This document shows, in pieces, positions 2,971 to 26,162 of a stretch of 64,000 nucleotides of DNA. Source of the DNA: Eubacterium sp. (lineage in GTDB: Bacteria; Bacillota; Clostridia; Lachnospirales; Lachnospiraceae). A program made the position numbers and the translations under genes. The notes under the pieces were generated by a model. It ran no database searches and was not told where the DNA came from. It saw only the letters and a program-made list of their open reading frames with translations. How positions within the stretch are numbered: position 1 is the first letter of the stretch; each line of letters starts with the position of its first letter. Location of the stretch: contig JAFVAQ010000036.1 of assembly GCA_017480495.1 (NCBI GenBank), positions 62,001 to 126,000 of the forward strand, read 5' to 3'.

Positions 2971-3006
2971 AGTATACAGTGTAATGCGCAACAAAAGCGT
3001 AACAAA
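2971..3006 (-). promoter_or_regulatory. SARP-type promoter a: paired TTTGTT repeats plus TATACT
   Basis: On the minus strand TTTGTT (3001-3006) is followed 11 bp later by a second TTTGTT (2990-2995), then 13 bp, then TATACT (2971-2976). The predicted start of transcription is about 34 bases before the ATG at 2930. The same geometry recurs at 11737-11772, 22084-22119 and 26127-26162. SARP-domain regulators are known to bind direct heptamer repeats with 11-bp periodicity close to the -10 box, and two such regulators are encoded in this window. The binding assignment is inference. Confidence 0.75.
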
Positions 3007-3018
3007 TATTATGATGTA

Positions 3019-3043
3019 GGTGTCAAAAGTACCTTTTGACACC
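3019..3043 (-). terminator. 11-bp hairpin ending the SpoIIE-like phosphatase unit
   Basis: GGTGTCAAAAG (3019-3029) pairs perfectly with 3033-3043 around a 3-base loop, just past the stop of the phosphatase gene at 3052 on the minus strand. No long U tract follows, but the next transcription unit's promoter begins only 13 bases beyond, so this probably separates the two units. Confidence 0.6.
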
Positions 3044-3051
3044 ATATGAAT

Positions 3052-4698
3052 TTACAATTTTTTTATATATGTGAAGCTAAGCATGGTTCTATCATCGAAT
3101 TGTGGGACGCCCTCTTCGAAAGCATCCGCTCTCTTAATCATAGCTTCTACCAGTTCCTCATTAGTTGCATCCTTATGAGCATTAAGAGTTTCAAGTATAT
3201 TGTCTAAGCCGAAGCGTTCGCCACTAGCAGACTTAGCTTCATTTAGACCGTCTGTATATAGGAATATTCTGTCTCCAGGATTAATATCGAATTCATAATC
3301 CTTGAATCTGGCACCAGGAATAAATCCAATAGGTGGACCGTGACGGGAGGTCTTATCTACGAAGTAATCCTCTCCACCCTTCATAATTGCCGGATAATCA
3401 TGACCTGCATTACATACATTTACATGTCCTGTGCTTAGGTCGATTATTGCCATCCATACTGTTACGAACATTCCCTCGCTATTCTTCTCAGCAATCACGT
3501 CATCTACATATTTAATGATTTCGGCTGCATTTCCACCCATCTTGGCACGGGCTCTGATAAGTGTCATGGATATAGCCATGAAGAATGCAGCTCCTGCACC
3601 CTTATCAGATACATCTGCTATTAGAATCACCAGATGATTATCATCTAGCATATAGTAATCATAGAAGTCTCCGCCAACCTCTCTGGCAGGATTCATGCTG
3701 GCATAGACATCGAAGCAGTCCTTGTCAGCCAGGAACTCTTCTCTCTTAGGAAGCATTCCCTTCTGGATATTAGCAGCAAGCTCGAGCTCTACATCCAGAC
3801 GCTCCTTCTCACTGGTGAACCTCGTAATATCCTCTATATTCTTAACTGTGTCTGACTCCATCTTATCAATGGATACAGCCAGCGCTCTTACTTCCTTAAC
3901 AGGAGAAGCAATCTCACTTAGAAGAGACTCCTCCGGAAGTGTATTCTCCTCTGCAAATCTATCTGTCTCTGTAGCTATAACCTTAACAGGATTAATCAGC
4001 CTCTTACGTAGTACCCTGCCTACTATAAGCAAACTAATAATAAGTAATACTATTGCGAGACCAGATACGCCCTGAATGAAGCTCCTTCTGGCATCAACCA
4101 GATCCTGCAGCTCTCTCTGTACACACATAATAGCTGTAACATTACCATTACTATCCTTGATAGGTACAAGTGCTGTGATATGAGGATTGGCCCCATTCAG
4201 ATTGAACTCTCTTAGAACTATCTCGTGATCCGAGCCCTTCTCTATAATATTTTTATATGCCTCGGCATAATCATTTGAGTTGATATCCTCAACATGTCCC
4301 AGCTCCCACTCTGTGAAGGGACTATTATCATTCAGACAATTAAATATGGAAGTATATGACTGATAGTCATCAGATGGTTTAATAACATAGATAACAGACA
4401 TACCCATATTGTTGCAGAAACTTGTAAGTCTCTGCTTCGTAGTAGCATATGACTCGAACTTACTGCCAACCTCTTCCTCAGTTGAAGCCAGATAATCATC
4501 TATGCTGTCTCCGTCTACAACCTCTGCGGAAAAGCGTGCTATACGATAAACAGAATCGTTATATTCATTTGTAAATGATTGGGTAAATGCATAGGAGCCA
4601 ATAAGTATTACTATTACAGCAAATAAAACTGTAAGGGCTATAACAATGCCATTTACGAAGGTATATAGACTAAACCCTTTCTTACTCTTATTATCCAA
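3052..4698 (-). CDS. Membrane-bound SpoIIE/RsbU-type PP2C serine phosphatase
   Basis: The 548-residue protein probably dephosphorylates a STAS anti-anti-sigma protein. One membrane helix at about 13-37 and another at 211-231 enclose an extracellular sensor (38-210) with Cache-like character. HAMP and coiled-coil segments lead to a C-terminal PP2C domain (about 330-548) with the metal-binding signatures GGDFYD (342-347), ADVSDKG (361-367), YTDG (481-484) and FDDRT (534-538). The start is TTG, five bases after GGAGG. It is the last gene of the giant-protein unit, 15 bases after an RsbW-like kinase gene. Kinase, phosphatase and the STAS protein at 11789 make a complete partner-switch set. What the extracellular domain senses is unknown. 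Confidence 0.9.
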   Translation of the reverse strand: MDNKSKKGFSLYTFVNGIVIALTVLFAVIVILIGSYAFTQSFTNEYNDSVYRIARFSAEVVDGDSIDDYLASTEEEVGSKFESYATTKQRLTSFCNNMGMSVIYVIKPSDDYQSYTSIFNCLNDNSPFTEWELGHVEDINSNDYAEAYKNIIEKGSDHEIVLREFNLNGANPHITALVPIKDSNGNVTAIMCVQRELQDLVDARRSFIQGVSGLAIVLLIISLLIVGRVLRKRLINPVKVIATETDRFAEENTLPEESLLSEIASPVKEVRALAVSIDKMESDTVKNIEDITRFTSEKERLDVELELAANIQKGMLPKREEFLADKDCFDVYASMNPAREVGGDFYDYYMLDDNHLVILIADVSDKGAGAAFFMAISMTLIRARAKMGGNAAEIIKYVDDVIAEKNSEGMFVTVWMAIIDLSTGHVNVCNAGHDYPAIMKGGEDYFVDKTSRHGPPIGFIPGARFKDYEFDINPGDRIFLYTDGLNEAKSASGERFGLDNILETLNAHKDATNEELVEAMIKRADAFEEGVPQFDDRTMLSFTYIKKL

Positions 4699-4713
4699 TT
4701 AATCCTCCAGGTT

Positions 4714-5157
4714 CTATGCAAGATTCTTCTTGATTGTCAGTACATTCTTACCATCTCTATACTCATAATCTACTGAGTCCATGGTACTCTTAACCAGGTG
4801 TATTCCAAAACCACCCTCTTGCTCCATAAACATAGCACCAGAGGTATCTGCGTCTTCCTTAGCAAGTGGATCAAATGGCTTGCCTGAATCCAGGAACTGA
4901 ATAGTTACAGAAAGCGGATTTTCTGTTACATCACATCTAATCTCAGCCTTACCTACTTCAGGACTATAGGCATAGGAAATAATATTAACAAATATCTCCT
5001 CTACTGCCAGTCTAATCTGAAACATAGGCTTCTTCTCGCAGCCATATTCCTCCAGCTTGTCACTAATAAAATCCTGTACTGGATCCATAGCATCGTCTAC
5101 GGCATCAATGATAATTGATTTTCCATCTTCGCTTATCTTATATTCTAAATCACCCAT
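4714..5157 (-). CDS. RsbW/SpoIIAB-type anti-sigma serine kinase (GHKL ATPase)
   Basis: This 147-residue protein matches the size of RsbW-family kinases, which phosphorylate STAS antagonists and bind sigma factors or other partners. The N box reads VEEIFVNIISYAY, and the ATP-lid region has the DSGKPFDP and GGFGIHLVKS motifs. The ATG at 5155-5157 is chosen because GAGGGGG lies seven bases upstream; a TTG six codons earlier has no such site. The gene sits 40 bases after the unknown 289-residue gene and 15 bases before the phosphatase gene, so the three are probably co-transcribed with the giant secreted protein. No sigma factor is encoded in the window, so its final target is unknown. It closely resembles the kinase domain fused to the phosphatase at 43311-45395. 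Confidence 0.88.
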   Translation of the reverse strand: MGDLEYKISEDGKSIIIDAVDDAMDPVQDFISDKLEEYGCEKKPMFQIRLAVEEIFVNIISYAYSPEVGKAEIRCDVTENPLSVTIQFLDSGKPFDPLAKEDADTSGAMFMEQEGGFGIHLVKSTMDSVDYEYRDGKNVLTIKKNLA

Positions 5158-5197
5158 TTTTGACCCCCTCGTCAATTAAGTATTTGTAAACTAATTA

Positions 5198-6067
5198 TTA
5201 ATCTACTGACCAGTCGATATCGCCCATCTCTTCAGCTGTAATCTCATCTTCATCTTCTTCATCTATATCTGTCTTAGACTTCTTCTTAGATGGCTTCTCA
5301 GGCTCGATGTATTCCTCGCCATTTAGCTCAGCCTCAAGCTTACGCCTCTCTCGTTCAAGCTTCTCCAGCTTACGACGAGCTCTCTTCTCCTTACGACTTA
5401 GTCCCTCTTCCTCTGGATGCTCTTCCTGCTTCTCAGGAGTATCCATAGCGAAGAAGTCGGTTGCAGTATCCACTTCCTCTTCAGGTTCACCGTCTCTACT
5501 CTTCTTCTTACGCTTAAATAGTTTGAAGCTCTTAATAGCTGCAATCTTCTCTTCCTTCGGCTTATTGCGGAATTCATCAATACGTGTAGTGAGATCCTTT
5601 TTATCAATAATTCGAGTCAGGCTGTCACTAGTTGCTTTATCGAATTTAAGCACAGCAAGTCTTACGGCCACACGGGCGGTAAGACTTCTAGGTGTAAAAA
5701 CTGACAATGTCAGCTCTTTATCTTCATTTTCATAGAATGCTATAACTACAGGGTAGAATACGTAGGTCTTAATCAGACAGCTGGCAGCATCTGGATTGCA
5801 ATGAAGGTTGATTCCTCGACCTATAGTAGACATCGCCGTTTTAGCTCTGTAGACTGCCTTCGTATTATTCTCTGAGTCTGTATTATATTTGAAGTGCTTA
5901 GTTGTGAGTCCCCATAATCTGAGGTTCTGGCTTCCATCGGGAACTCCCCAGAGTGGGAATCTAAGCTCGGAGGTCGTCGTGAAGTGACCATCCTTATCAA
6001 TCACTATGCGGTTTAGAAGCACATCACGTGCTTCTAACATCATAGGGTCTTTTTTCTTCTTAGACAA
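5198..6067 (-). CDS. Protein of unknown function with charged C-terminal tail
   Basis: This 289-residue protein is not recognised. Residues 1-175 look like a compact mixed fold (FTTTSELRFPLWGVPDG, and later hydrophobic strands such as TYVFYPVVIAFY). Residues 175-289 are very rich in Lys and Glu, including a predicted coiled coil near RKEKRARRKLEKLERERRK, and end in an acidic tail. No signal peptide or membrane segment is visible. The start is TTG, with AAGGAG nine bases upstream; an ATG eight codons later lacks this site. It lies between the giant secreted protein and the kinase/phosphatase pair, so it is probably regulated with them. It could be a cytoplasmic adaptor, or a substrate with a charged tail. 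Confidence 0.7.
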   Translation of the reverse strand: MSKKKKDPMMLEARDVLLNRIVIDKDGHFTTTSELRFPLWGVPDGSQNLRLWGLTTKHFKYNTDSENNTKAVYRAKTAMSTIGRGINLHCNPDAASCLIKTYVFYPVVIAFYENEDKELTLSVFTPRSLTARVAVRLAVLKFDKATSDSLTRIIDKKDLTTRIDEFRNKPKEEKIAAIKSFKLFKRKKKSRDGEPEEEVDTATDFFAMDTPEKQEEHPEEEGLSRKEKRARRKLEKLERERRKLEAELNGEEYIEPEKPSKKKSKTDIDEEDEDEITAEEMGDIDWSVD

Positions 6068-6119
6068 CTTCTTTGTCTCCTTATTTGTGATTTTCTCTAT
6101 CTAAATCATCTTCGAACTC

Positions 6120-9100
6120 TTATTCGCCTTCATCAGTAGAAGAATCAACTGTCAGATTGATAGTGTACTTCATATCTTCTGCTTCAGTTGGAATGATTTC
6201 GATTCTATATAACTTCGGACTACCCGAATCATTAACAGGTGTTGTAAAGTTAAAACTACCATTAGCTGTATCACTTGTTACTGTTTCATTTGTGACTTCT
6301 GTTGATTCACTACCAACCAGCGCGTATGCTCTGACACTAAAGCCTGCAGTAGATCCCGTAACAGCCATAACGCCAGATATTACATCATTACTCTTACCAT
6401 TAACAGTTGCTACTTTATCCGTAAATGTAATTGGGCCTACATCTGTCATACTTGCACTACATGTTACATCAAGAGGAGCCTTCTTTTCGTCACTCTTAAC
6501 TGTCAGATTGATAGTATACTTCAAATCTTCTCCTTCAGTTGGAATGATTTCAATCTTGTATATCTTCAGTTCTCCTGAATCATTAACAGGTGTTGTGAAG
6601 CTGAAACCACTCTTGGCTGTATCATACGCGACCGTATCATTTGTAACTTCTACCGGTGCGGAACCTACCATCTCGTATGCTCTAACCTTGAAGCCTGCGG
6701 TGGAGCCCATAACCGCCATAACACCAGTTATAACGTCGTTACTCTTACCAACAACTATTGCTTCACTATCCTCAAATGTAAGTGCTCCAACATCTGTCAT
6801 GCTTGCACTACACGTTACATTCAGATCAACCAGTCTGATAATACCACCATTCTCGATGCCCTTGAAGGTCTGATCAATATTACGCTCGAAGTGTGCATCC
6901 CGGTCAAATCCAACTTCCATATATAGCTTGGATATTGACCAGCTGGCATTCAGACTAGCAAGCACCTGAGCACTTAGTGAGTTAGTATCCTTAACCTGAT
7001 CATCTGATAATTCGGTTACATCAACTTCCTCAACCTTGGTCTCCTCTGCCTCTGGAGTTGATTCATCGGCTGCATCCTCAATTGCATTATATGGAAGAAT
7101 CTTAACCGATAGAATCTGTAGCTTCTTATTAAGCTCTGGCAGGAATACCTTCACTGTCTGATCATAGCCTGTAAAGAACTGTCTCTTATCAATAGCCTCC
7201 TCCTGCTCATCTGTAGTTAGTTCATCATTTATTGTTGTTTCTCCAGCCTGCTTATTTAGTTCTGGCTGAATATATCTGGTAATATCTACGAACTTCTTGG
7301 TCTTAATCCCATCACTATCTGTACGATATGTAAATACCATGCTTACTGCTGAATCTGTACCGCTCTCTGCATTCTTCATAGCATCGGATGTCGTAAATGT
7401 TACTGAAACTGGTGCAACTGCACCCTCACCATTCAGTTCATGTGAAGTAGCTTTATGTGGTGTAAGTCTGTCGCTAAGTGCATACGTCTCAGCAAATGCT
7501 GTATAGCTTCTCTTAGTTCTCTTAAGAGTCTTCTTAGCTCCTGTAGATGTATCCAGTTCTCTATCCTCAGCCTTAACTGAATATACCTCAGCTGCTGCTG
7601 CATCTATATTACCCTTGAGCTCACCGTAGCCTGCTATTGTGTAGCCTGTAATCTCCTTAACATATGGAACCTCAAATTTGAGCTCTGCGAAGAGTCCCTC
7701 GCTTATCTCCTGATATCCCTGATCAGTCAGATATACATATGGGGACTGATATTCCTGCTTACCATCATCTATAGTAGATGTATAAGTGAATGAAACTGCA
7801 ACATCTCTAGCCTCCTGAACCAGTGCCTGTTCAGGTGTTCCAGGTCCAAATAGAACTGCAAGTCTCTCTTCAGTAATATCTATCAGAGATTCATCTACTG
7901 CATAATCAGCTGAAGCACCTCTGACTCCACTCTGCTCTCCAAAGTAATATGGATATGTTCCTACTACTGTGTTACCTCTCATATGCTGTACTATAGCTTT
8001 ATCAAATACAACATTTGAATTAACGCATCTCGCTACCAGCTCTGATGGAAGTACCATGTTATTAGTAGGAAGCCCCTTATAGTAGTATACATTTCTTCCA
8101 AGTCCATCAGTTATACCTGCCAGATTATTCTGTGACTGAGTCATATACTGTGAATATGGAATGAAGTACTTGAATCTAAGCAGGTCTACCTGAGCGCCTG
8201 TATCATTCTTGGATCCAAGTGTAGGATATATGTATACGTTAACCTTGTCGTCGTTATTCTCTGGGAGTCTTGAAACCGGTGTAGCCCATGTCTCAGACTT
8301 CCACTCTATTTTATTTGTAAATGTAATAGGTTCAATTGGTGTAGCCATTCCAACAGGCAGATCAGTACCAACTGTCTTATCTCCATCCTGTGTACACAGC
8401 TTCTTAACTGTCATATTCCTATACAGCTCATCATTAGCATTCTTCTGGATAGCTCCATCCTCGATTACCTGAGATAAGCTTATCTTACCCATATCCCATC
8501 TACATGCTTTGTCAGTTACATTCATAACAGTAAATTCTATACTGTTGATTGAACCCAGGTCTGCAATGGCAGGCAGAATAAATCTGTCAGTGTGATATGG
8601 TCTCATCATATACTTAGGATTAGTTCTATATCCCGAACCATCTGCGGATACCACTTCATCATCCGGGTTCGTCGCCCCCTCAACCGTAGTTGCCGAGATG
8701 CCCTGATATTGTGCCATAAGCTGTGCTACATCGCACTCTATATCCTTGACGATTCCATCTGAGGCTCGAGTATAGTAAATCTTAGCCTTGATATTACCTG
8801 TGAAGTATCCGAAGTCACCATCCCATGGAAGATACGGAATCTCGCACAGAATCTTAACTCGGCTCTCTTTATAGGATCTCTCGAATTCCTTAGCTATTTC
8901 CTCTTGAGTTCTGGCCTGACGGCTTCTAAGCGATGATGTCTCACCCTCATCATGATAATCTATCTCTATCCAACCAATATCGTTGAATACATATGATAAG
9001 TAGCTTCCGCCATTAGTACTCTCTGATACTGTAATACTCTTAATATTCAGCTTATCATATGGATCAGCATCGGATGCTACATCCTCTGGGATAATTCTAA

Positions 9101-11678
9101 TCTTATTAACCTCTCCATAATCCTGGTTGGTTGATATATAGAATACCTCCGTCATATTAGACCTGAAACCATCACTGGTTATCTGCTGATTTGCCAGTAC
9201 ATATCCGCTTCGACCATTTTCAAATACCAGCTGGAAGTAGAAGTGGTTCTTAGAACCCGCATTTCCATTACCTGAGTCATGTGCATCGTCCGGTGCAACT
9301 TCAACTGCTATCTCATAAGTCTTACGCTTCTTGAAGAATCCCCAGTTAACCTGTGTCTGTTCATGGGTCATGGAGTACATAACCTTGCTATAGTCTATCT
9401 TTCTGACATCCAATGTCTTCTCAGAATTAAATGAAATAGTATATGTATCATTTCCAAAGAATAATTGATTCTCAAACTTAGAATACTCAATATTCTCCAG
9501 CTCTCTATATGTAGGATTGCCCTCCTTATCCAGAACTGGCTTACCATCTTCGTCTAATATCTTCTCTTTAACTTTCTTACCGTTAGCTCCTACTTCATTT
9601 CCATTCTCATCATAAACGAGAGGAATGGATGTTCTCAGATTGAAGAGCTCTGCAGCAACAGCATCTCTCTGAAGGAAGAAATTAGATCTAACCCCAGCCT
9701 GCTCATATGGAGTATTATAGGCTCTTCGAGATTTATAACTCTCTAGATAAGAGATAACCAGGTTATCCATTATCCATTCATCTTCACCATCTACGGTAAT
9801 CTCGACTCCTGTGAAGTCTCTTACATCTTCAATGGTTGCTACGAAGCTAATCTTACCTCCCGCTACTAGTCCAGATTCCAATACGAAATCCTTATCATTA
9901 GCAGTAGGCCACTTACCCATATACTTGGATGCTTCTTCCTTGACATGGTATACAGGTGTTTTCTCATCATAATCAGGATCCTCCATAGTTGAATAGTGAA
10001 TCTTGATACCTATATCACTTTCTGTAGCTCCAGTCTGCGAATCATTTGTATACAATGTAATTAGATACTTATCTCCACCAGCAGGGCCTGCCACAACTGA
10101 ATTACCCTTCGTATAAGGCTTCAATGACAGCTTATCAGTACTGTTAGGATAAATCTTACGTCCATCATCACCAGCTATTGTATAGTAATAGATAGGATCT
10201 GAATTCTCGAATGTGTATTGAACAGTGGCTCCAGCTACCTGCTGATTATTAATATCAGTACCACCCTGTATATATGGCATGCAACCACCCTTGTAGAGTG
10301 ATATACCAGACAAACTTATATCATCTGTCGCGCCTGTTGTTGAAACACTGCTGCCTCTCTTGCCTCCTGATGAAGAAAGTGTTACTCCCTTATTAGAGAT
10401 CTCCTTACGTGCATTATTTCCTGTATAAATAACGGTTTCGCCAATTACAGAAGCAAATTCAGGTAGAAGCCCCTGAAATGCTATCGTGTCTCCACGCTGT
10501 GCGAAGCCCATAATCTTGTCATTAGGATTAGTGTTCTTAAGAGTAGCATAGCTATTAAGTATCACTGGAAGCAGGACCTTCCTGGTCCAGCCATGTGTAT
10601 CCTGATACTGAAGCTCTACTGCTAGATCCTCAACTATTCCATCATAGGAACTAACTGTCTTGGCATCTGAATTCACAAATGCTTCGATACCACCCTCAAA
10701 TCTATCGGTAAAATCTAATCTTAAGGAATAAACCGAATCGTTGATTGCAAAATCCCTCTTCTGGGTATTAGCAGGATAATTAGTGATAGATGCCTTAAGA
10801 TAATTACCACCTACACTGTACATCTTATCCGAACCTGATGTATTAAAAGTAAGCTGCTCACCCTTATTCTTCTTATTCATCTCAGCTACCATGTAACCCT
10901 TGAAGTCGAAGAACTTACCACCAGATACCAGTCCATATTCCTCGTAGCCTCTATATTCATCAACCTTATAGAGTGCCATACCCTGTGGAGTCCACTGCCC
11001 TCTCTCAAGATATACATCAATCTTCTGGACAGAAGCAATCACATCACTAGCCTCAAAAACAAATGATTGAACTGTAAATGGATCAAGTGGCTTCTCAGCA
11101 GCCGGATTATCCTTATAACCAACTGATGTTGCAAGCTGCTTAGTTCCATTGTTATATATGCTCTGATTTTTTGAGTAATATAGAAGAAGTCTCTCGGTTT
11201 TGTCGGCTCCATCAACATTTGGGAATATATATTCCTGCTTGGATACGCCATCCTTATTTTTGTACTTAATACAATAATAGAGAACTGTCTCGCCACCACT
11301 AGCACCAGTTGCAAGTGTCAGACAATAGGTTTTATCTGTTCCCTTGTAGCTACTCTTAACTGCCCATTTCTCGAGTCCCTTATTCTGAGAAAAAGCAGGC
11401 ACTGTGGTATCTGCAGTTACAGAATATCTATCCTCATCCAAATCCTCTTCTATCGCAGCATCACCTGGAGTAGTTGTACTATAACTTGAAGAATATGATG
11501 AAGCATTCCCTAAATTAAATGACGGCAGCGAGTCTGATGATGAAGCAGAATATGCAGCACTAGTACCAGCCATATCAGCTTCCTTAGCACTTACAGGTAC
11601 AGTAGGCACTAGAGATACAAATATGGATGTCGCCATCACTCCTGCTATAAATTTTGTAAATAATTCCTTCAATCTCAT
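6120..11678 (-). CDS. Giant secreted repeat-containing protein of the secretion locus
   Basis: This 1852-residue protein has a clear signal peptide (basic MRLKELFTK, hydrophobic core, cleavage after VSA at residue 31) followed by a Ser/Thr-rich region. The body is rich in Tyr, Thr, Gly and Asp and looks beta-stranded. Two C-terminal repeats of about 117 residues share VTCSASMTDVG, GKSNDVI, GSTAGF and TTPVNDSG. There is no LPXTG motif and no C-terminal membrane helix, so it is probably released or held non-covalently. ATG follows AGAGGTGA by eight bases. It is the first gene after promoter b (11737-11772) and is followed by three regulatory or unknown genes. I do not recognise a family; an adhesin or surface component of the apparatus is a fair guess. 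Confidence 0.85.
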   Translation of the reverse strand: MRLKELFTKFIAGVMATSIFVSLVPTVPVSAKEADMAGTSAAYSASSSDSLPSFNLGNASSYSSSYSTTTPGDAAIEEDLDEDRYSVTADTTVPAFSQNKGLEKWAVKSSYKGTDKTYCLTLATGASGGETVLYYCIKYKNKDGVSKQEYIFPNVDGADKTERLLLYYSKNQSIYNNGTKQLATSVGYKDNPAAEKPLDPFTVQSFVFEASDVIASVQKIDVYLERGQWTPQGMALYKVDEYRGYEEYGLVSGGKFFDFKGYMVAEMNKKNKGEQLTFNTSGSDKMYSVGGNYLKASITNYPANTQKRDFAINDSVYSLRLDFTDRFEGGIEAFVNSDAKTVSSYDGIVEDLAVELQYQDTHGWTRKVLLPVILNSYATLKNTNPNDKIMGFAQRGDTIAFQGLLPEFASVIGETVIYTGNNARKEISNKGVTLSSSGGKRGSSVSTTGATDDISLSGISLYKGGCMPYIQGGTDINNQQVAGATVQYTFENSDPIYYYTIAGDDGRKIYPNSTDKLSLKPYTKGNSVVAGPAGGDKYLITLYTNDSQTGATESDIGIKIHYSTMEDPDYDEKTPVYHVKEEASKYMGKWPTANDKDFVLESGLVAGGKISFVATIEDVRDFTGVEITVDGEDEWIMDNLVISYLESYKSRRAYNTPYEQAGVRSNFFLQRDAVAAELFNLRTSIPLVYDENGNEVGANGKKVKEKILDEDGKPVLDKEGNPTYRELENIEYSKFENQLFFGNDTYTISFNSEKTLDVRKIDYSKVMYSMTHEQTQVNWGFFKKRKTYEIAVEVAPDDAHDSGNGNAGSKNHFYFQLVFENGRSGYVLANQQITSDGFRSNMTEVFYISTNQDYGEVNKIRIIPEDVASDADPYDKLNIKSITVSESTNGGSYLSYVFNDIGWIEIDYHDEGETSSLRSRQARTQEEIAKEFERSYKESRVKILCEIPYLPWDGDFGYFTGNIKAKIYYTRASDGIVKDIECDVAQLMAQYQGISATTVEGATNPDDEVVSADGSGYRTNPKYMMRPYHTDRFILPAIADLGSINSIEFTVMNVTDKACRWDMGKISLSQVIEDGAIQKNANDELYRNMTVKKLCTQDGDKTVGTDLPVGMATPIEPITFTNKIEWKSETWATPVSRLPENNDDKVNVYIYPTLGSKNDTGAQVDLLRFKYFIPYSQYMTQSQNNLAGITDGLGRNVYYYKGLPTNNMVLPSELVARCVNSNVVFDKAIVQHMRGNTVVGTYPYYFGEQSGVRGASADYAVDESLIDITEERLAVLFGPGTPEQALVQEARDVAVSFTYTSTIDDGKQEYQSPYVYLTDQGYQEISEGLFAELKFEVPYVKEITGYTIAGYGELKGNIDAAAAEVYSVKAEDRELDTSTGAKKTLKRTKRSYTAFAETYALSDRLTPHKATSHELNGEGAVAPVSVTFTTSDAMKNAESGTDSAVSMVFTYRTDSDGIKTKKFVDITRYIQPELNKQAGETTINDELTTDEQEEAIDKRQFFTGYDQTVKVFLPELNKKLQILSVKILPYNAIEDAADESTPEAEETKVEEVDVTELSDDQVKDTNSLSAQVLASLNASWSISKLYMEVGFDRDAHFERNIDQTFKGIENGGIIRLVDLNVTCSASMTDVGALTFEDSEAIVVGKSNDVITGVMAVMGSTAGFKVRAYEMVGSAPVEVTNDTVAYDTAKSGFSFTTPVNDSGELKIYKIEIIPTEGEDLKYTINLTVKSDEKKAPLDVTCSASMTDVGPITFTDKVATVNGKSNDVISGVMAVTGSTAGFSVRAYALVGSESTEVTNETVTSDTANGSFNFTTPVNDSGSPKLYRIEIIPTEAEDMKYTINLTVDSSTDEGE
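6123..6821 (-). repeat. Two tandem 117-codon repeats at the 3' end of the giant gene
   Basis: Unit 1 spans 6471-6821 and unit 2 spans 6123-6470, a period of 351 bases. The encoded units share VTCSASMTDVG, GKSNDVI, GSTAGF, TTPVNDSG, IEIIPTE and KYTINLTV. Differences are spread through both units, so the duplication is old rather than a recent expansion. Confidence 0.85.
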
Positions 11679-18402: not shown

Positions 18403-19398
18403 TTATCTGACCCTCAGTTTCTTTCTCGAAATATAAAGTGCTACACCTATACCAATAATCAGCGCTAATACAATAAGCAGAAATGCTACTGCCTTAATAT
18501 TCAGATAAGTAAAGATTGTAAGCTCCTGCTGCTGAACATTTCCAGCCTTGTCAATTATCATTACCAGATAATCGCCACTCTCTGTCAGTTCATAATCTGT
18601 AGTTACCTTAGGAGTGCCCTCGTTGAAGCTTACATATACTGTATCATCGTCCTGTACACCCTCAAGAGTAACTGGTCCCCTGGCGTGATCCTTGTCATCT
18701 ATACCAACGAATTTAACATTTGGTGGAGTATGATCAACATTTACTGTTAGATAATAATCAATCTGTGTTAGATAGCATTGATAGGATATCTCATAATATC
18801 CCTCCTCTGTCATATCTACAGATCCTCTGCCAGTTCTAATCTCCTGACCATCCTTGATTACTCTGGTAACATTGAAACCATCTGGCATAATATACTGTGT
18901 TATAGCACCAGTATCATTTGTAACAATAGTGAAGGAACATATCTGATTCTCACTATTATCATCCCATACAACAGCCACGTATGATCCAGGATCAGAGACT
19001 GAAGTCGGTATAGAATCCATCTTGGTTCCATCCTTATATAGAGCAATGTTGTACTCACCACTAACTGCCATATTAACAGTTCCTGTAACATACATTCCGT
19101 CAGCGGCTGAGCAACTAAATACTCCATTTTGTGAGGCATAGTTAAACATCTGATTGGTTAAATCATAAGTTACATTGGAATCAATTGTGACAATATTAGA
19201 CGCACTTGCCACATTGGCTTCACTTCCAACGGGTTCACCGGTATATATATCCAGCTCTCCTACATAACCCTCATAGGTAGTATCCTCCGTAGTTTCTTCG
19301 GAGGTTTCTGAGTCCTCTCCCTCAGCGTATACACCTACCGCAGGCATGAATACTCCAAATAATAGAATTATACTTGTAACTATGAATCTTCTCATCAT
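18403..19398 (-). CDS. Signal-peptide surface protein with C-terminal membrane anchor
   Basis: This 331-residue protein has a signal peptide (residues 1-25, cleavage after VYA), then a Glu/Thr-rich linker. Next comes an all-beta extracellular region with Ig-like features (VDHTPPNVKFVG; ESGDYLVMIIDKAGN). One membrane helix at about 302-325 is followed by a basic RKKLRVR tail. It lies in the T4SS operon, 18 bases after the coupling-protein gene and 33 bases before the channel gene. No VirB8/TcpC-like gene is visible, and a single-pass protein with a large outer domain could fill part of that role, though topology is opposite. I do not recognise a specific family. Confidence 0.75.
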   Translation of the reverse strand: MMRRFIVTSIILLFGVFMPAVGVYAEGEDSETSEETTEDTTYEGYVGELDIYTGEPVGSEANVASASNIVTIDSNVTYDLTNQMFNYASQNGVFSCSAADGMYVTGTVNMAVSGEYNIALYKDGTKMDSIPTSVSDPGSYVAVVWDDNSENQICSFTIVTNDTGAITQYIMPDGFNVTRVIKDGQEIRTGRGSVDMTEEGYYEISYQCYLTQIDYYLTVNVDHTPPNVKFVGIDDKDHARGPVTLEGVQDDDTVYVSFNEGTPKVTTDYELTESGDYLVMIIDKAGNVQQQELTIFTYLNIKAVAFLLIVLALIIGIGVALYISRKKLRVR

Positions 19399-19416: not shown

Positions 19417-21441
19417 TTAAGCACTTTCCATCATATTTTCATCGTCTTCGCTCTTACCAAGCACGATTTCATTTCTTCTATCGAGGTCGTAATACACCTC
19501 GTCAGCTCTGAACATGTGGCTTCTAAGCTCCTCCATATCCATTCTACCCATCTTGTAATATGGGCACTGATAACTAGGGGTGTACTTGGTTTTAAGTGGG
19601 AAATTACCGAATGTAACTATAATTGCATTACCGGTGCTTTCCTTATTATTAAGCATCTGCAACTCTGATGGATAGATAAGTGGTCTAACCTGAGTCTGAG
19701 CAGATACATTAATATCTCCTGCCTTGGCGCCTATTGACGATGATGTCGAGGTTGTACGGACTGTCATGTTACCACACAGCTTCGAGAATTCCTCACAGGT
19801 ACCAATATCATTGGAACCGATGAACATCTTCATACCACAGTTAGATTTAACGATGTCTGCTACCTTCTCGCCGTATACGTTATTAAGCTGCGAATAGGAC
19901 TGAACTACCATGTTGAACCAGATTTTTCTGGAACGACCTACTGTGATCATCTTATCGAATTTCTCGATCTTAGGCATGTTACCAAACTCATCCAAAATGA
20001 AGTATACATTTCTTGGAAGAGATAGGTCCTCTCTTGCCGATGCAACCTTGATAAGTGCTTTATACATACAGAGAATGAACACAGCCGCGAGTCCGTGACG
20101 TGTATCCTTCTCGTCTGGTATCTTCATGAAGAGGGCAGTTGGCTGGTCTGCGAACTTCTCTGCCTGGACGTCAGTTGCAGAGGTCAGACCACATAGTCCT
20201 CTATCATTAAACATATTTAGCTTGTCGAATGTAATCGACATATATGATGAAAGTGTAGTATCTGCTGCTGACATAACCTGACGTGACAGTGTGTATGCCT
20301 GTGACAGCTTACTACGTTCCTCGAAATATTCCTTAAGAGTCGCGAATTCATCCTCTGAATTCGTAAGTGCCTTATTAATATTGAAGAAATTGAATTTATC
20401 CTTAGTCATCTCGAGACGTTCATCCTCTGAATCCTCAAGCATGGCAAGACAGGTTGACATAATAATTGATCTTGCACCCTTCTCCCAAACAGGATCCTTC
20501 TCGTTTTCGATAGGACATATAACAGATATCAGATCATTTAAGTCCTCATACATTTCATCATAAAACTTCTGTCTGGTAACAGATACGTCATCCTGGCAAT
20601 GACTCAGATCGGCGTAAGCATTTCCATGCCATTCCGCCCATGGCTTACCAGGCTCTCCCTCTCCGTCCATTCTCTTAAGGTCCGGATAGTTGGACATATC
20701 ATCCTTGTGGAACTTGATACCCTTACCAGCCTCCACGTACTCCTGATACATATCCCAGATGCCATCAAGTGGATTCCATCTTGATGAAGAGTAGGTATCA
20801 CGGAGATCAAGCAGAAGAACCTTATATCCTCTGGATACAAGATACTTTGAATGTAGATCAAAAAGCTCACCCTTAGGGTCTGTCATGATCATGGAGCTTC
20901 CAGCTGCTGTTGAAGCAAGAAGCTGAATCATAGGGTTAATAAATGTGGTTGTTTTACCAGAACCAGTAGCACCGATAATCAGTGAGTGTGCACCTGGCAG
21001 GAAGTTAACCTGAAGATTGTTCTTCTTATCTAGCACTGCTCTTACAGGGATACCGTCCTTCTTAACATGGCTAAGCTGGTTATAGGTATGTCCAGGGAAA
21101 TACTTATCTCTCTCAATATCTGTTAGGAAACGGCTGTTCTCGAGCGAACCCTCGACTACATCAACCTTACCCTTCTTACCTAGGAGACCCTTGGTAGATC
21201 CAAATATGTATCTATCCATGTTATTTCCTGACAGCAGGAATATAAGACTGGCAAAAAATGCACCAATCGCACCTATAGCCCATGTCTGCCAATTAAGTAG
21301 CAGGGACCAATCTATTTTATAACCGCTTCCTTCCTCTAGCTGTTGAGGGGCCGTTATGAAGGACTGCACCACAAATCCGAGAAATCCGGCTATTATAATA
21401 AATAAAAATAGATAAATAAGTATTTTGTGAACTGTTTTCAT
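19417..21441 (-). CDS. VirD4/TraG-type T4SS coupling ATPase
   Basis: This 674-residue protein recruits substrates (DNA-protein complexes or effector proteins) to the secretion channel. Two N-terminal membrane helices (about 7-29 and 52-71) are followed by the ATPase domain, with Walker A GATGSGKTTT (157-166), the TDPKGE motif near 187-192 and Walker B FILDEFGN (481-488). QSYSQL near 514 is also typical of TraG/VirD4. GGGGTGA precedes ATG. It is encoded after the pilin and before the surface protein. Since no relaxase is seen in this window, its substrates may be proteins, but a relaxase could lie left of base 1. Confidence 0.94.
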   Translation of the reverse strand: MKTVHKILIYLFLFIIIAGFLGFVVQSFITAPQQLEEGSGYKIDWSLLLNWQTWAIGAIGAFFASLIFLLSGNNMDRYIFGSTKGLLGKKGKVDVVEGSLENSRFLTDIERDKYFPGHTYNQLSHVKKDGIPVRAVLDKKNNLQVNFLPGAHSLIIGATGSGKTTTFINPMIQLLASTAAGSSMIMTDPKGELFDLHSKYLVSRGYKVLLLDLRDTYSSSRWNPLDGIWDMYQEYVEAGKGIKFHKDDMSNYPDLKRMDGEGEPGKPWAEWHGNAYADLSHCQDDVSVTRQKFYDEMYEDLNDLISVICPIENEKDPVWEKGARSIIMSTCLAMLEDSEDERLEMTKDKFNFFNINKALTNSEDEFATLKEYFEERSKLSQAYTLSRQVMSAADTTLSSYMSITFDKLNMFNDRGLCGLTSATDVQAEKFADQPTALFMKIPDEKDTRHGLAAVFILCMYKALIKVASAREDLSLPRNVYFILDEFGNMPKIEKFDKMITVGRSRKIWFNMVVQSYSQLNNVYGEKVADIVKSNCGMKMFIGSNDIGTCEEFSKLCGNMTVRTTSTSSSIGAKAGDINVSAQTQVRPLIYPSELQMLNNKESTGNAIIVTFGNFPLKTKYTPSYQCPYYKMGRMDMEELRSHMFRADEVYYDLDRRNEIVLGKSEDDENMMESA

Positions 21442-21571: not shown

Positions 21572-22015
21572 TTAATCCTGTGTTTGTTCAGCTGCTGGTG
21601 CTGATGTTGTCTTAGATGATGACTCCATCCACTTTGTAAGTGGGTCGATTGAAAGTCTAAGTGCAACTACCAGTATAAAGATAAGCAGGTATCCAATGAT
21701 AGCTGTCTTGAGTGACTGCTTACGCTTCTCTCTCTCCTGTGGCTCCTCTGCCATAGCATACTTAACACCAAGCATGATACAGAAGATTGCACCACCTGCA
21801 CCTACAATAAGTAGGATTGGTCTAATCAAGCTATTAAGCAGTGTCACGATTGGGTTTGCAACGCTTGAGAAGTCCGGACCACTTGCGAATACTCCAGTTG
21901 TATAAGCTACTGCTGCAAATACAGCTACAAGAGCAGCTGATCCCATTTTAATAGCGATAACTGCCTTCTTGTTTGATGACACCTTCTTGATCATCTCTTT
22001 CATACTTGTCTTCAT
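21572..22015 (-). CDS. VirB2/TrbC-like pilin subunit
   Basis: This 147-residue protein starts with a basic region, then hydrophobic segments at about 21-45, 60-85 and 103-123. The basic cytoplasmic loop EEPQEREKRKQ between the second and third is characteristic of Gram-positive VirB2-like pilins encoded just upstream of VirD4. A possible processing site follows GVFA near residue 44. AAGGAGG is eight bases before ATG, a strong site fitting high expression. It is the first gene of the secretion unit, with promoter c 70-100 bases upstream and a hairpin just downstream. Confidence 0.85.
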   Translation of the reverse strand: MKTSMKEMIKKVSSNKKAVIAIKMGSAALVAVFAAVAYTTGVFASGPDFSSVANPIVTLLNSLIRPILLIVGAGGAIFCIMLGVKYAMAEEPQEREKRKQSLKTAIIGYLLIFILVVALRLSIDPLTKWMESSSKTTSAPAAEQTQD

Positions 22016-22083: not shown

Positions 22084-22119
22084 ATTATATCAGTAAAAGG
22101 GTAACAAAAGCGCAACAAA
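22084..22119 (-). promoter_or_regulatory. SARP-type promoter c driving the T4SS unit
   Basis: On the minus strand TTTGTT (22114-22119), five bases, TTTGTT (22103-22108), 13 bases, then a perfect TATAAT (22084-22089). It is the best -10 box of the set. The predicted transcript starts near 22077, giving a leader of about 60 bases before the pilin ATG. It lies only 16 bases past the stop of the histidine kinase, so read-through from the regulatory unit is also possible. Confidence 0.85.
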
Positions 22120-22135
22120 TATTATATTTATTTTG

Positions 22136-23386
22136 TTATTTTTGTTTATTCGGCTGAACAGCCATCATTTCAGGTATTTTAATGATGGAGTCTGTGCCCT
22201 CTGGAGACTTATTGATACTAAGCTCTCCCTTGCACATAATGCTGAGTCTGGTCTTAACATTCTTGGTTCCAACGCTCTTATGCTTCTTCTGTGTTGCCAG
22301 CTTAGTCTGCTTACCATGTCCGCCATCAGATACCGCGATTATTATAAATCCACCCTCTCTTCTGGTAGAGATTCGGATGTCATCTCCCTCTGTACTCATG
22401 CCTATGCCGTAATAAATGGCATTTTCTACTAATGGCTGTACCGTAAGTGCAGGCAGATAGAAGTCGGTCACCTCAAAATCCTTATGCACGTGGAAATTCC
22501 TGGATGGTAGGATTTCGGCGAGTTCAATATATGTATCTACATGCTCCATCTCCTGTTCAAATGGAATCATTCCATCATTCGTAAGAGATTCGAAGTTCTT
22601 CCTCAGGTAACCTGAGAAGCTGAATATTGCATTCTTGACAGAGCCTGGATCCTCATCACACAGCAGTGCAATCTGCTGAAGTGAATTATATATAAAGTGT
22701 GGATGAATCTGTTCCATTAGGAGTGAAACCTTGTTCTCTGACAGCTCAACCTGACTGGTCAGTAGATCCTTCTCTGTATCCATCTGATATCCGAAAAAAA
22801 CAGTCAGTAGGAATAGGATTAGTCCAAAACCAGCCAGCTCGAAGCGGGAATCCCCTATCCCGACCAGTGAAGTACTTATGGGGGCTATCAAGCCTGTGAT
22901 AAATCCTAGACTCGCCTTGATACTCTTGGAGGATATCATAAGCATTACCATCACGACTATATACTGTATCAGGAAGAATATATTGGCCAGGAAACGGCTT
23001 CCGCCGTAAACCGAGAAGCCTATAACCAGTACCGCAATCAGACACTGGAAGATGGTCCAGAAATATCCGTCCCATTCCTGTCCCTCTGAACGCTCTGTTT
23101 CTATGAAATAGAGTCCGAACAGTGGTGCCACAAATGCATACATGACCCAGGAGGCTATTACGTACTTGCTTCCTGTATATTGCTCGGATGACATAGACTG
23201 AAGCTGGAATGCTAGTCCTCCCATATTGACACAGACTGCCGCTATAAACCAGCCCATTCTACGACTGTGATTCTTCATCTGTATAGATACCAGCAGCACT
23301 ACTATTGTCAGAATCATGGATACAAGTACGAATATTATATTGGTTAATGTGTAATAATCTGAATACTGCTCAAATATTCTATCCAT
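22136..23386 (-). CDS. LytS-type membrane histidine kinase 1
   Basis: This 416-residue protein has six to seven membrane helices in residues 12-200. The His_kinase domain motif QIHPHFIYNSL has the likely phosphoacceptor H230. A GHKL ATPase domain has VQPLVENAIYYGI and SDGGHG motifs. It should sense an envelope or extracellular signal and phosphorylate the SARP-type regulator encoded two genes upstream (24095-24898). GGGAGAG precedes ATG, and the start is only three bases after the stop of the 231-residue membrane protein gene, suggesting coupled translation. Its paralogue at 27076-28317 has the same design. Confidence 0.9.
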   Translation of the reverse strand: MDRIFEQYSDYYTLTNIIFVLVSMILTIVVLLVSIQMKNHSRRMGWFIAAVCVNMGGLAFQLQSMSSEQYTGSKYVIASWVMYAFVAPLFGLYFIETERSEGQEWDGYFWTIFQCLIAVLVIGFSVYGGSRFLANIFFLIQYIVVMVMLMISSKSIKASLGFITGLIAPISTSLVGIGDSRFELAGFGLILFLLTVFFGYQMDTEKDLLTSQVELSENKVSLLMEQIHPHFIYNSLQQIALLCDEDPGSVKNAIFSFSGYLRKNFESLTNDGMIPFEQEMEHVDTYIELAEILPSRNFHVHKDFEVTDFYLPALTVQPLVENAIYYGIGMSTEGDDIRISTRREGGFIIIAVSDGGHGKQTKLATQKKHKSVGTKNVKTRLSIMCKGELSINKSPEGTDSIIKIPEMMAVQPNKQK

Positions 23387-23389
23387 CTA

Positions 23390-24085
23390 TTATATCTCTC
23401 CCGAATTGTATCTATACATGTAGTAGTCGTAGCAGAAATTCTTGGTCTTAACGTATACCATAATAATTACTGTTACATAATAGATTACGACTGAGAGAAA
23501 TAGCATTATACTTAGCTGTACAATTGGTCCCTTAGCCAGAACTATAATTGGAAGAAGTATAACTGAGAATACTAGAAATATAAGATGCGCTATGAGCCAC
23601 AGCTTCTCCTGTTTCCTAGTTTCCTCCTCTAATTTCTTCTTCTCCATTTTCTTATATATATTAGTCATTCCTCTAAGCATATAGAAGATTGCCAGTAGAA
23701 CTCCTATTCCAGGAGTAAGTCTTAGTACCGCAGCAAGTATATCCATCGGTGTAGTCATTATTAAACTGTCCAACCACTTCGCAAATGCATATATGAGCTC
23801 TCCAAGCATATAGGTAAGTGCTGAATAATAGGCTATTCTAAACCACCTATTGATACCAAACATCCTGTACAGGCAGGTGGCTATGGCGCATATTATCAAG
23901 TATTCTATAACATTAAATGTCATGGATATCTCACTGGTGGATTCCAGGAGGCTACTCATCTCAGCGTAATTCCCCAGCATCAATATGAGGCACAATGCAA
24001 CCATGGATATAATGGAGCCAACGAACAGTGCTAATATAAAATATGGAAATATTCTAAGAGTTTTTAAATCAACCTTGTTATTCAT
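23390..24085 (-). CDS. Polytopic membrane protein of unknown function between regulator and kinase genes
   Basis: This 231-residue protein is strongly hydrophobic, with about six predicted membrane helices and a basic cytoplasmic loop around KKMEKKKLEEETRKQEK (residues 144-160). I do not recognise a family. It lies 9 bases after the response regulator gene and 3 bases before the histidine kinase gene, so it is almost certainly co-transcribed with them. A role as a sensory partner or modulator of the kinase is a reasonable inference from position only. Confidence 0.75.
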   Translation of the reverse strand: MNNKVDLKTLRIFPYFILALFVGSIISMVALCLILMLGNYAEMSSLLESTSEISMTFNVIEYLIICAIATCLYRMFGINRWFRIAYYSALTYMLGELIYAFAKWLDSLIMTTPMDILAAVLRLTPGIGVLLAIFYMLRGMTNIYKKMEKKKLEEETRKQEKLWLIAHLIFLVFSVILLPIIVLAKGPIVQLSIMLFLSVVIYYVTVIIMVYVKTKNFCYDYYMYRYNSGEI

Positions 24086-24094
24086 TCTAGGCTC

Positions 24095-24898
24095 CTACAG
24101 TGAATCCGGCTTCATAATAAGCTCACCCAGCGTCATCTCTGCCCATGAATATTGATTCATATATTCACCCATGAATGAGTTGATTGCCTGACTGTCACCC
24201 TTTAAGTAATTCAGGTAATCACAATCTACCGCAGAACAGTCGACACCGTATGCATTCCATCCCTTAACCAGGACCTTCTCTGCACCATTCTTAGAGAGAT
24301 CATCCCTCAGAGCTGACAGGAAGACTCTAAGCTGCTTCTTCAGACTCTTGTCCTCTTCTCTATCCTCGAAGAGTGCCGCACACAGTTCTCCAATTGAGCA
24401 GAGCGCCCCTCTTCGATCTATCAGATAAGCAAGGATTTCCTTGCTTCTACTTCTCTTGAATTTAATCGGCTGATCATCCTTATCAAATACCTCGAAGTTA
24501 CCGAAGCATTGAATTCGGAGTAAACCAGTTTTCTTAATCTCGACAGGATTTCGAAGGTTCTCCAGTTCTCTCTTAAGAGCATCGATTGTAGCAGGCTTGA
24601 GAATAAATCCACTTGCATGAAGCTGGAAGGACTGATATGCGAATTTCTCATGTCCTGTTACGAATATGATATTGGTATTTGGGGAGAGCTTCTTGATTTC
24701 CATCGATAGCTCCAGTCCTGAGATACCTGGCATCTCTACATCTAGCCAAGCTACATCAGGATTCTCCTCTCCTACATATTCCAGTGCTTTGTCTGCATCT
24801 GAGAATGGTACGTGCTCTCCATCCGGATCAAGCTCGTACATCATCTCAGCTATTTCCTGAGCTACATTTAACTGGTCGTCAACTGATACTGTTATCAT
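24095..24898 (-). CDS. SARP-family response regulator 1
   Basis: This 267-residue protein has a receiver domain (1-120) with acidic pocket D7/D8, phosphoacceptor D53 in AWLDVEMPG and Lys in GFILKP. It ends in an OmpR-like winged helix of the SARP/SAPR type (about 128-230; IQCFGNFEVFDK, FKRSRSKEILAYLIDRRG). Proteins of this class bind direct repeats at 11-bp spacing, matching the paired TTTGTT sites at four promoters in the locus. AAAGGA precedes ATG. It lies between the cell-wall hydrolase gene and the membrane protein gene. It ends with a TAG stop. Confidence 0.92.
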   Translation of the reverse strand: MITVSVDDQLNVAQEIAEMMYELDPDGEHVPFSDADKALEYVGEENPDVAWLDVEMPGISGLELSMEIKKLSPNTNIIFVTGHEKFAYQSFQLHASGFILKPATIDALKRELENLRNPVEIKKTGLLRIQCFGNFEVFDKDDQPIKFKRSRSKEILAYLIDRRGALCSIGELCAALFEDREEDKSLKKQLRVFLSALRDDLSKNGAEKVLVKGWNAYGVDCSAVDCDYLNYLKGDSQAINSFMGEYMNQYSWAEMTLGELIMKPDSL

Positions 24899-24924
24899 TA
24901 GATATTCCTTTCTACTCTAATGTA

Positions 24925-26088
24925 CTAATGGAAGACATTTCCGCCTATGTTAACTCCTTCGATTCCGTACTGCTCGGCATACCATGCTGCCTTGAAGTAA
25001 TAATTCGGTACATTTCTCTTGCCATCCAACACCTCCTGCGCCACCTGATAGCATGAAGTAGCCGGACCTCTCGCGAGAATTACAGCTAGTATACCTGTTT
25101 CGGCTGGTTCAAACTGATATGGTGCATAAACCACACCCTCAATAGTATTGGCGAAGTTGGGACTCTCAACCCGGTTCATAACTACGCTTCCTACAGCAAC
25201 CATACCCTCATAGCTTACACTACCTGCCTCAGCCTCGATTATGCCTGCCAAAAGTGTCAGCTCATAATCGTCATATGGATATGGAGTCGAATAATAGAAT
25301 TCAGTTCCATCTCCTGAAAATGAGATTCCACTGGATGTCCCATCATATCCACGTGCACCTAGTATTTCTCTCTGCGCCGCTTCAAGCGCCAGAACCTCCG
25401 TTTTCAGCTGTTCAGCGAAGGCTTCTGCACTCTCTGCTCTCTCCTTTGCTTCCTCCATAAGAGAGCTAAGCTCATCCATTTGCTTAGACAGTTCCTTACG
25501 CTGTCCCTCCAGATTCTCAAGAGCGAGCTCCTTGTCATCCTTAAGCGATTTAAGAGCCTCTGTCTGAGTAGTCTCTGAATTCATAATCGTTTCGAGTTCA
25601 GATATCTTGGAATTGATATAAGCACTATAGGAATCTACATATTCATCCTGATTAATCAGATCATCTAAGTCATCAGCATTTAGCATCATTGCTAGTGAAT
25701 TATCCGTATTCATGGATTCATACATCTCACTGAGAGCATTTCCCATCTCGGTACGTGCCACAGAAATCTTATCCTCTATCTCAATAAGGTTATTATTGGA
25801 TATCTCGATTTCTTTATCTATCTCATCAATCTCGTCATTAGTGCGCTCTATTTCCTGAGATAGCTCAGCGATGCCACTATTGACTTCCTTAATTTCCTCT
25901 ACCAGCTCTGCCGCTGTATTCTTATTTGCCTCTGCGGTCTCCTGCTGATCCTCGTAGTCCTTCCTCTTATCCTCGAGGGACTGGGCATTTACTGGAAATG
26001 CACTGAGAATGCAGGCTATAATCAGTAGAAGACAGAGTACTGTATTCTTCTTAATGATTATCAATTTATTTTTCCTCACTGTCTGCAT
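24925..26088 (-). CDS. Secreted coiled-coil peptidoglycan hydrolase with SleB-type domain (VirB1-like)
   Basis: This 387-residue protein probably opens peptidoglycan for the secretion apparatus. A signal peptide ends at VNAQS near residue 36. A long CwlO-like coiled coil (about 38-240) precedes a linker and a C-terminal cell-wall hydrolase domain of the SleB/Hydrolase_2 family (about 275-387). That domain has the catalytic-type motif AGIIEAEAGSVSYEGM and later VGSVVMNRVESPNF and YQFEP. The ATG start lacks a ribosome binding site; TTG at 26062-26064 has GTGAGG eight bases upstream and leaves an intact signal peptide, so that start may be the real one. It is the first gene after promoter d and precedes the two-component genes. 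Confidence 0.87.
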   Translation of the reverse strand: MQTVRKNKLIIIKKNTVLCLLLIIACILSAFPVNAQSLEDKRKDYEDQQETAEANKNTAAELVEEIKEVNSGIAELSQEIERTNDEIDEIDKEIEISNNNLIEIEDKISVARTEMGNALSEMYESMNTDNSLAMMLNADDLDDLINQDEYVDSYSAYINSKISELETIMNSETTQTEALKSLKDDKELALENLEGQRKELSKQMDELSSLMEEAKERAESAEAFAEQLKTEVLALEAAQREILGARGYDGTSSGISFSGDGTEFYYSTPYPYDDYELTLLAGIIEAEAGSVSYEGMVAVGSVVMNRVESPNFANTIEGVVYAPYQFEPAETGILAVILARGPATSCYQVAQEVLDGKRNVPNYYFKAAWYAEQYGIEGVNIGGNVFH

Positions 26089-26126
26089 GGGTGCAGAATT
26101 ATACCCACTTCTCGGTATACATCATC

Positions 26127-26162
26127 ATTTTACATAATGTTGTCCAACAAATGTCCAACAAA
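26127..26162 (-). promoter_or_regulatory. SARP-type promoter d upstream of the SleB-type hydrolase
   Basis: On the minus strand TTTGTT (26157-26162), five bases (GGACA), TTTGTT (26146-26151), 13 bases, then TAAAAT (26127-26132). Spacings are identical to promoters a-c. The upstream repeat overlaps the U tract of the preceding terminator. This unit encodes regulator 1 and kinase 1, so the regulon is likely autoregulated. Confidence 0.8.

Follow-up and report, generated by a model that had tools for sequence, protein, structure and literature searches.

Activator-type promoters of a genus-wide regulon probably couple a type IV secretion system to dispersed candidate substrates in Lachnospiraceae

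The stretch of DNA studied here, hereafter the window, comprises 64,000 nucleotides of a Eubacterium sp. of the family Lachnospiraceae (assembly GCA_017480495.1, contig JAFVAQ010000036.1, positions 62,001 to 126,000). It carries a type IV secretion system (T4SS) locus with four promoters of similar build, which an earlier note had described as sharing a SARP-type architecture and as forming a regulon under one or both of the two regulators encoded at the locus. Our analyses suggest that activator-dependent promoters of a genus-wide regulon probably couple this Gram-positive, apparently non-conjugative T4SS to dispersed candidate substrates, by way of a proposed regulatory cascade. The dozens of candidate substrates encoded elsewhere in the genomes, the existence of two site types and the likely cascade were all absent from the earlier note. 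Genomes, contigs and loci are designated below by our own handles (G, C and L numbers).

All genes of the locus lie on the minus strand. In the order of transcription, it opens with the sensor kinase HK1 (27076..28194; PF06580 by Pfam, which we take to be of the LytS type) and the response regulator RR1 (26224..27042), followed by a terminator-like hairpin (read by eye) and the first promoter (26127..26162), whose first TTTGTT overlaps the T-run of the terminator. This promoter precedes a unit composed of a cell-wall hydrolase with a coiled coil (24925..26088; PF07486), probably the wall-opening part of the machine, the response regulator RR2 (24095..24898), a 231-amino-acid (aa) membrane protein recognized by its hydrophobic sequence and without Pfam match (23390..24085), and the sensor kinase HK2 (22136..23386; PF06580). 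The second promoter (22084..22119) drives an operon that encodes a T4SS pilin (21572..22015; PF18895), a VirD4 coupling protein (19417..21441; above the NCBIfam cut-off for the CD1115 family), a 331-aa protein conserved in the locus with an apparent signal peptide and a C-terminal transmembrane segment (18403..19398), a VirB6-like membrane protein (16381..18369; above the cut-off for the MMCAP2_0566 family), a VirB4 ATPase with an acidic C-terminal tail (12113..16264) and an anti-sigma-antagonist-like protein with a STAS domain (11789..12091). VirB4 is nearest to the Mbov_0397 family of integrative and conjugative elements (ICEs), with 539 bits against a cut-off of 590. The two ATPases, the VirB6-like protein, the pilin and the wall hydrolase are all present.

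Behind the third promoter (11737..11772) come a giant secreted or surface protein of 1852 aa with a PLAT domain (6120..11678), a 289-aa charged protein conserved in the locus (5198..6067), an RsbW-like HATPase (4714..5175; PF13581) and a SpoIIE-type phosphatase with a membrane sensor part (3052..4698). The fourth promoter (2971..3006) precedes a 605-aa candidate T4SS substrate, a charged protein without leader and with a lysine-rich C-terminus (1113..2930). The locus thus contains a full partner-switch set (STAS protein, RsbW-like HATPase and SpoIIE phosphatase), which travels with the T4SS in other genera and may gate the machine post-translationally.

The four promoters were found as the earlier note had given them, with 5' ends at 3006, 11772, 22119 and 26162. 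Each has two perfect TTTGTT repeats 11 bp apart and 13 bp to a -10 box (TATACT, TATACT, TATAAT and TAAAAT, respectively), that is, TTTGTT-N5-TTTGTT-N13-TA(T/A)A(A/C)T. Neither a core repeat pair nor a full motif occurred when the window was shuffled 100 times with an order-1 Markov model. The proposal of one shared architecture holds for the repeats and spacings, but the sites are of two kinds: type A, TTTGTTRCNCTTTTGTT, at 3006, 11772 and 22119, and type B, TTTGTTGGACATTTGTTGGACA, at 26162. A fifth TTTGTT-N5-TTTGTT pair, at 57370(-), comes after an inverted repeat rich in T, lacks a -10 box at 12-14 bp and is probably not a promoter of the set.

A logo of 39 sites, chosen for a 13-bp spacer (12- and 14-bp spacers exist too), reads TTTGTTGCGCT, then TTTGTTRYGCT, 8 bp and TATAAT, so that the two type-A 11-mers end 8 bp before the -10 box; most of these sites have TG ahead of that box (T in 27/39 at -3, G in 25/39 at -2). 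At activator-dependent class-II promoters the activator site replaces the -35 box, and by analogy the two 11-mers would stand in for it here. The geometry of the logo supports the earlier reading of the repeats as activator sites with an 11-bp period, and their type is that of class II. Individual sites recur in other genomes: the 36-mer at 2971..3006 is found identically at G012:C30:15803, the site ahead of the giant protein also occurs in L094 and L055 (with 1-2 mismatches in L120 and L089), and that ahead of the pilin in L086, L088, L090, L091, L092 and L094 (with 1-2 mismatches in L254 and L255).

A scan of the whole window genome (1.89 Mb, 66% complete) with the pattern TTTGTT-N5-TTTGTT-N10-16-TANNNT gave 11 distinct places, against 0 for the reversed pattern. 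Among 61 genomes of the same genus, 40 contained a total of 269 type-A matches (variable spacing may count one site twice), and the reversed pattern had a single match. The type-B consensus, TTTGTTGGANATTTGTTGGA, occurred at no more than 2 mismatches in 18 of the 61, with 1 match for its reversed control. Outside the family, a looser pattern yielded 7 scattered matches, with other flanking bases, in 16 genomes of the order's other families, versus 4 for the reversed pattern. The four sites are thus almost certainly members of a genus-wide regulon. The idea of a single regulon stands; its confinement to the T4SS locus does not, as it reaches far beyond. Apart from the soluble proteins described below, sites precede pilins, giant surface proteins, lipoproteins, a SpoIIE and a STAS protein. 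The small lipoproteins lie behind L009:2841, L014:3992 and L049:1494, and the regulon may therefore include surface proteins.

The distribution of the sites follows that of the machine. All 28 VirB4-positive genomes (high-identity matches, including fragments in G011 and G046; lower-scoring matches are other VirB4s) have type-A matches, 236 in total with a median of 7, compared with 12 of the 33 VirB4-negative genomes, which hold 33 matches (Fisher 4e-8). The same 28 genomes all encode an RR2 ortholog (at least 70% identity), which also occurs in G005 and G013, and type-A sites are found in 30/30 RR2-positive versus 10/31 RR2-negative genomes. The VirB4-negative G013 has 10 type-A matches, one of them 350 bp from the start of a contig whose first unit is that of the giant protein; we infer that the T4SS of this genome may have fallen into a gap in the assembly. 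G005 keeps the regulators and a type-B site (C1:1439358-1441590), has no more than two type-A matches and may have lost the machine naturally.

To characterize the genes behind the sites, we took the surrounding stretches from four genomes, G000, G023, G009 and G013, including all 25 exact sites of G023 (the -10 filter dropped one) and most of those of G013. Fifty-five sites passed the filter, and 50 of them were followed within 400 bp by a complete open reading frame (ORF) of at least 100 aa; the remaining 5 had no complete ORF in the stretch, three of them running into cut ORFs. Behind these sites were 34 soluble leaderless proteins of at least 300 aa, with a median length of 960 aa, lysine-rich and with a net charge of +5 in the C-terminal 30 residues, versus a median of 413 aa and a C-terminal charge of 0 for 82 neighbouring soluble control ORFs (p ~1e-11). 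One of the 34, L055, is a giant surface protein with a borderline leader, and the later set comprised 33 proteins. Among these, 28/33 carry K, R or H within the last three residues, compared with 64/148 control ORFs. The window genome itself holds nine candidates, some behind one-mismatch sites: the 605-aa protein of the window and others of 1679, 747, 566, 744, 349, 1007, 714 and 1129 aa. We consider these large site-driven proteins probable substrates of this T4SS.

Of the 32 candidates (out of 33) run against Pfam, 5 pass the cut-off and 25 have nothing above it. The 566-aa protein has a Fic domain (2.5e-6) in which the sequence reads HSFGDGNGRSCR, presumably fitting the Fic active-site motif. 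L013 and L045 have a PI3/4-kinase domain (L044 and L052 align with this pair, below the cut-off), L037 an ADP-ribosylglycohydrolase domain (1e-39) and L024 an Ntox11 domain (1e-20). The candidates share modules in shuffled order. By sequence, the solved structures that match best are FICD proteins in the case of the Fic protein and FAM20A/FAM20C in that of the kinase-like family.

Seven candidates share a C-terminal domain of ~275 residues, which allowed us to approach the regulon independently of the motif. This domain is present in 30/61 genus genomes, namely 25/28 VirB4-positive versus 5/33 VirB4-negative ones. When genes were chosen by the domain alone, 27/37 had a site within 350 bp upstream, versus 4/273 control ORFs (p 2e-26), at a site threshold that we set ourselves and applied equally to the controls. 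The 37 are the usable part of the first 40 genes listed after dropping the 7 found by the motif (3 were cut at contig ends), and some are orthologs of each other or of motif-found genes, so that not all are independent. Both basic tails and the shared domain are enriched among the candidates. The predicted model of the domain is of high confidence (pLDDT 85.6) and all-helical, and we found no convincing relative for it in the PDB.

Among 295 genomes drawn from the order, the only carriers of the domain are the window genome and four members of a single genus in another family. All four of the latter possess this VirB4 type (52-55% identity), versus 1/20 domain-negative genomes, the 20 being all from the window's family. 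None of the domain genes of this second family has a TTTGTT site. In an exploratory search, 3/9 of them (L247, L250 and L252) carried a different repeat of 11-bp period, TTATGNC-N4-TTATGNC, which also occurs ahead of a pilin (L113:4467); it stands 16 bp before a -35-like box (TTGAAA in three cases, TTGATT in one) and may represent the same regulon in rewired form.

Toward which cells such substrates would be directed can be approached from their domains, their gene neighbourhood and their habitat. A eukaryotic target appears plausible to us, if tentative. Eleven of the 74 loci have titles that name rumen, omasum or abomasum, 16 more are labelled RUG (presumably rumen uncultured genome), 2 name colon and, judging from bin names, four seem to be termite-gut bins. 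Since genome catalogues of this kind are rich in rumen genomes, a ciliate or protist target is only suggested by these sources. It may instead be that, with regulon and T4SS both real, the substrates act on competing bacteria, in a contact-dependent antagonism like that of the Xanthomonas-type killing T4SSs; we consider this somewhat less probable. The Ntox11 domain of L024, a polymorphic-toxin domain, and the ADP-ribosylglycohydrolase of L037 would agree with it, as would weak matches of the Fic protein to the PADLOC models PDC-S04 and SoFic and a gut habitat dense in bacteria. However, an immunity gene normally adjoins the gene for an antibacterial substrate, and a close co-directional ORF (at least 100 aa, within 80 bp; smaller ones were not looked for) follows only 5/34 site-driven proteins versus 41/136 controls, which speaks against linked immunity genes. 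The solved structures closest in sequence, FICD and FAM20A/FAM20C, also argue against bacterial targets.

The two regulators are proteins of 267-272 aa that combine a receiver, equipped with a phospho-acceptor Asp, with an OmpR/PhoB-type winged helix and ~45 residues after the wing, which include a conserved YSW. Pfam scores their Response_reg domains at 84.6 and 69.2 bits, with invariant receiver residues D7, D8, D53, T81 and K101 (A2), and their Trans_reg_C domains at 24.8 and 19.6 bits, short of the 26.2-bit cut-off. The best Foldseek matches of the regulator model are full-length OmpR/PhoB regulators, VanR, DrrB, RpaA and PhoP among the first, and the receiver is best scored by BtsR/LytR models. 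Membership of RR1 and RR2 in the SARP family, which had been supposed, is not supported: the repeat geometry and the winged helix of the SARP-type proposal are there, but a receiver is present and Pfam lists no BTA domain at E<=10 (HMMER filters may drop weak matches). According to PMC10936776, AfsR has ~150 residues of BTA domain, compared with the ~45 post-wing residues here, and the last repeat of SARP sites lies 8 bp from the -10 box, the same distance as in type A. RR1 and RR2 resemble the Streptomyces SARPs AfsR and ActII-4 in their OmpR-type winged helix and in a pair of direct 11-bp repeats located between -35 and -10, and differ in their N-terminal receiver, the adjoining sensor kinases and the lack of any tie to antibiotic clusters. 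With the OmpR/PhoB family they share the receiver and winged helix and two 11-mers that form a 22-bp box where the -35 would be, as is the case for PhoB, whereas the BtsR/LytR-like receiver, the PF06580 kinases and the ~45 extra C-terminal residues set them apart. We class RR1 and RR2 as OmpR/PhoB-like response regulators that would use a SARP-like promoter geometry.

That these regulators control the regulon, their own unit included, was well conceived in part. They are likely activators, since RR2 orthologs and type-A matches are both found in every one of the 28 VirB4-positive genomes, and site 26162 does precede the unit of RR2 and HK2. RR1 and HK1, on the contrary, lie upstream of that site, and no such repeat stands ahead of HK1. 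Across 13 genomes, type-B sites lie 59-2115 bp upstream of RR2, and in 11/13 between an RR1-like gene and RR2. In two loci of another lineage, L111 and L115, the regulator is of the RR1 type (343 and 354 bits, versus RR2 scores of 185 and 175), and the pilin has a type-B site, with one mismatch, in front of it; among the loci examined, those with RR2 have a type-A site at the pilin or T4SS operon. From these observations we infer the order RR1, type B, RR2, type A, and the corresponding assignment of RR1 to type-B and RR2 to type-A sites seems to us slightly favoured. In several genomes (G067:C137, G075:C47, G063:C21, G008:C36 and G057:C9), RR2 has a third response-regulator gene of this family next to it, placed between RR1 and RR2 where both share a contig.

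Several observations weigh against the account given so far. L111 and L115 were read as loci only, and RR2 could lie elsewhere in those genomes. Type B precedes a different receiver protein in L108 and L126 and, beside type-A sites, VirD4 inside the T4SS operon of G056 and G057. Some sites stand ahead of lipoproteins (L009, L014, L049) or of a pseudopilin-like ORF (L041), and others (L023 and the C2 site of L015) have no clear gene behind them; 10/37 domain-bearing genes have no recognizable site, and a basic C-terminus, taken by itself, supports a secretion signal only weakly. Ten of the 12 VirB4-negative genomes with their 33 type-A matches have no RR2 ortholog, among them G047, G048 and G053 with 5, 3 and 3 matches; G005, assembled in one contig, has RR1, RR2 and type B without any VirB4 match; and the VirB4-positive G008, G061 and G070 have no match to the C-terminal domain at E<=1e-6. 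Regulator paralogues at ~31-43% identity are numerous (G020 has 11 matches), and they could recognize the same repeats. The repeats might accordingly be bound by such a paralogue or by a global OmpR-type factor, the locus regulators doing something else, as the many paralogues per genome, the ten genomes with type-A matches and without RR2 and the side-by-side occurrence of A and B in two genomes would allow. We regard this as unlikely in view of the presence of RR2 in all VirB4-positive genomes (28/28), the excess of type-A sites in RR2-positive genomes and the recurring place of type B in the regulator locus.

The machine itself resembles the Gram-positive ICE systems of the CD1110/CD1115 and Mbov_0396/0397 families in its VirB4, VirD4 and VirB6 relatives, and differs from them by its co-regulated substrate set, its partner-switch genes and the lack of a nearby PF03432 relaxase. 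We found no relaxase of this family (the only one searched) near VirB4 in 13 VirB4-positive genomes, the nearest on the same contig being ~370 kb away (G002), and none anywhere in five nearly complete genomes (G023, G043, G055, G056 and G064). The gene order of the locus, with its STAS, HATPase and SpoIIE genes, is kept across genera, Pseudobutyrivibrio and Ruminococcus loci included. By its gene content, this is apparently a Gram-positive, ICE-type, non-conjugative T4SS. The membership of VirB4, VirB6 and VirD4 in or near ICE families would fit a conjugative element whose large co-regulated proteins serve unrelated surface or stress functions, but the PF03432 relaxase searches, the conserved gene order and the lack of leaders in the substrates, which makes a Sec route unlikely, leave this a very improbable explanation. 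Chance likeness among AT-rich promoters, to which a short, T-rich motif partly overlapping a terminator might lend itself, can be practically dismissed given the shuffles, the reversed-pattern controls and the domain-first test.

In the regulon proposed here, HK1/RR1 would sense a cue, upon which RR1 would bind the type-B repeats (TTTGTTGGACA twice) and turn on the hydrolase-RR2-membrane protein-HK2 unit. RR2 would in turn bind the type-A repeats (TTTGTTGCGCT twice), which take the place of a -35 box and end 8 bp ahead of a TGn-TATAAT -10, and would thereby turn on three sets of genes together: the pilin-VirD4-VirB6-VirB4 operon, the unit of the giant surface protein with the partner-switch genes, and the substrates. 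VirD4 would recruit the latter by their C-terminal part, a basic tail and in some the shared helical domain, for delivery into a neighbouring cell.

The nearest known kind appears to be the PmrA/CpxR-controlled effector set of Legionella; the present set would be a variant of it from Gram-positive commensals, whose machine, regulators and C-terminal domain are distinct. PmrA also operates in Coxiella. In Legionella pneumophila, regulator elements stand before many dispersed genes for Icm/Dot substrates, which have C-terminal signals (PMC2701608). The likeness lies in a shared regulator element before dispersed genes, here of putative substrates. The differences are the Gram-positive Lachnospiraceae background, an ICE-type instead of a Dot/Icm machine, other regulators, two site types with a likely cascade, and a shared helical domain without convincing PDB match; moreover, translocation is here only predicted. 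Our searches of open-licence PMC papers turned up no account of a T4SS that injects proteins and has a large co-regulated set of substrates in Gram-positive commensals of gut or rumen. It is conceivable, though we advance it with reserve, that rumen Lachnospiraceae possess a Legionella-like injection system: a relaxase-free, ICE-derived T4SS aimed at eukaryotes such as rumen ciliates, with a two-tier cascade and up to dozens of modular effectors. These would comprise Fic, FAM20/PI-kinase-like and ADP-ribosylglycohydrolase proteins together with many that contain no known domain, and a C-terminal helical domain not described before would recruit some of them. The shared promoter provides a sequence handle to list the candidate substrates of each genome, and makes an action of Lachnospiraceae on ciliates or on rival bacteria directly testable.

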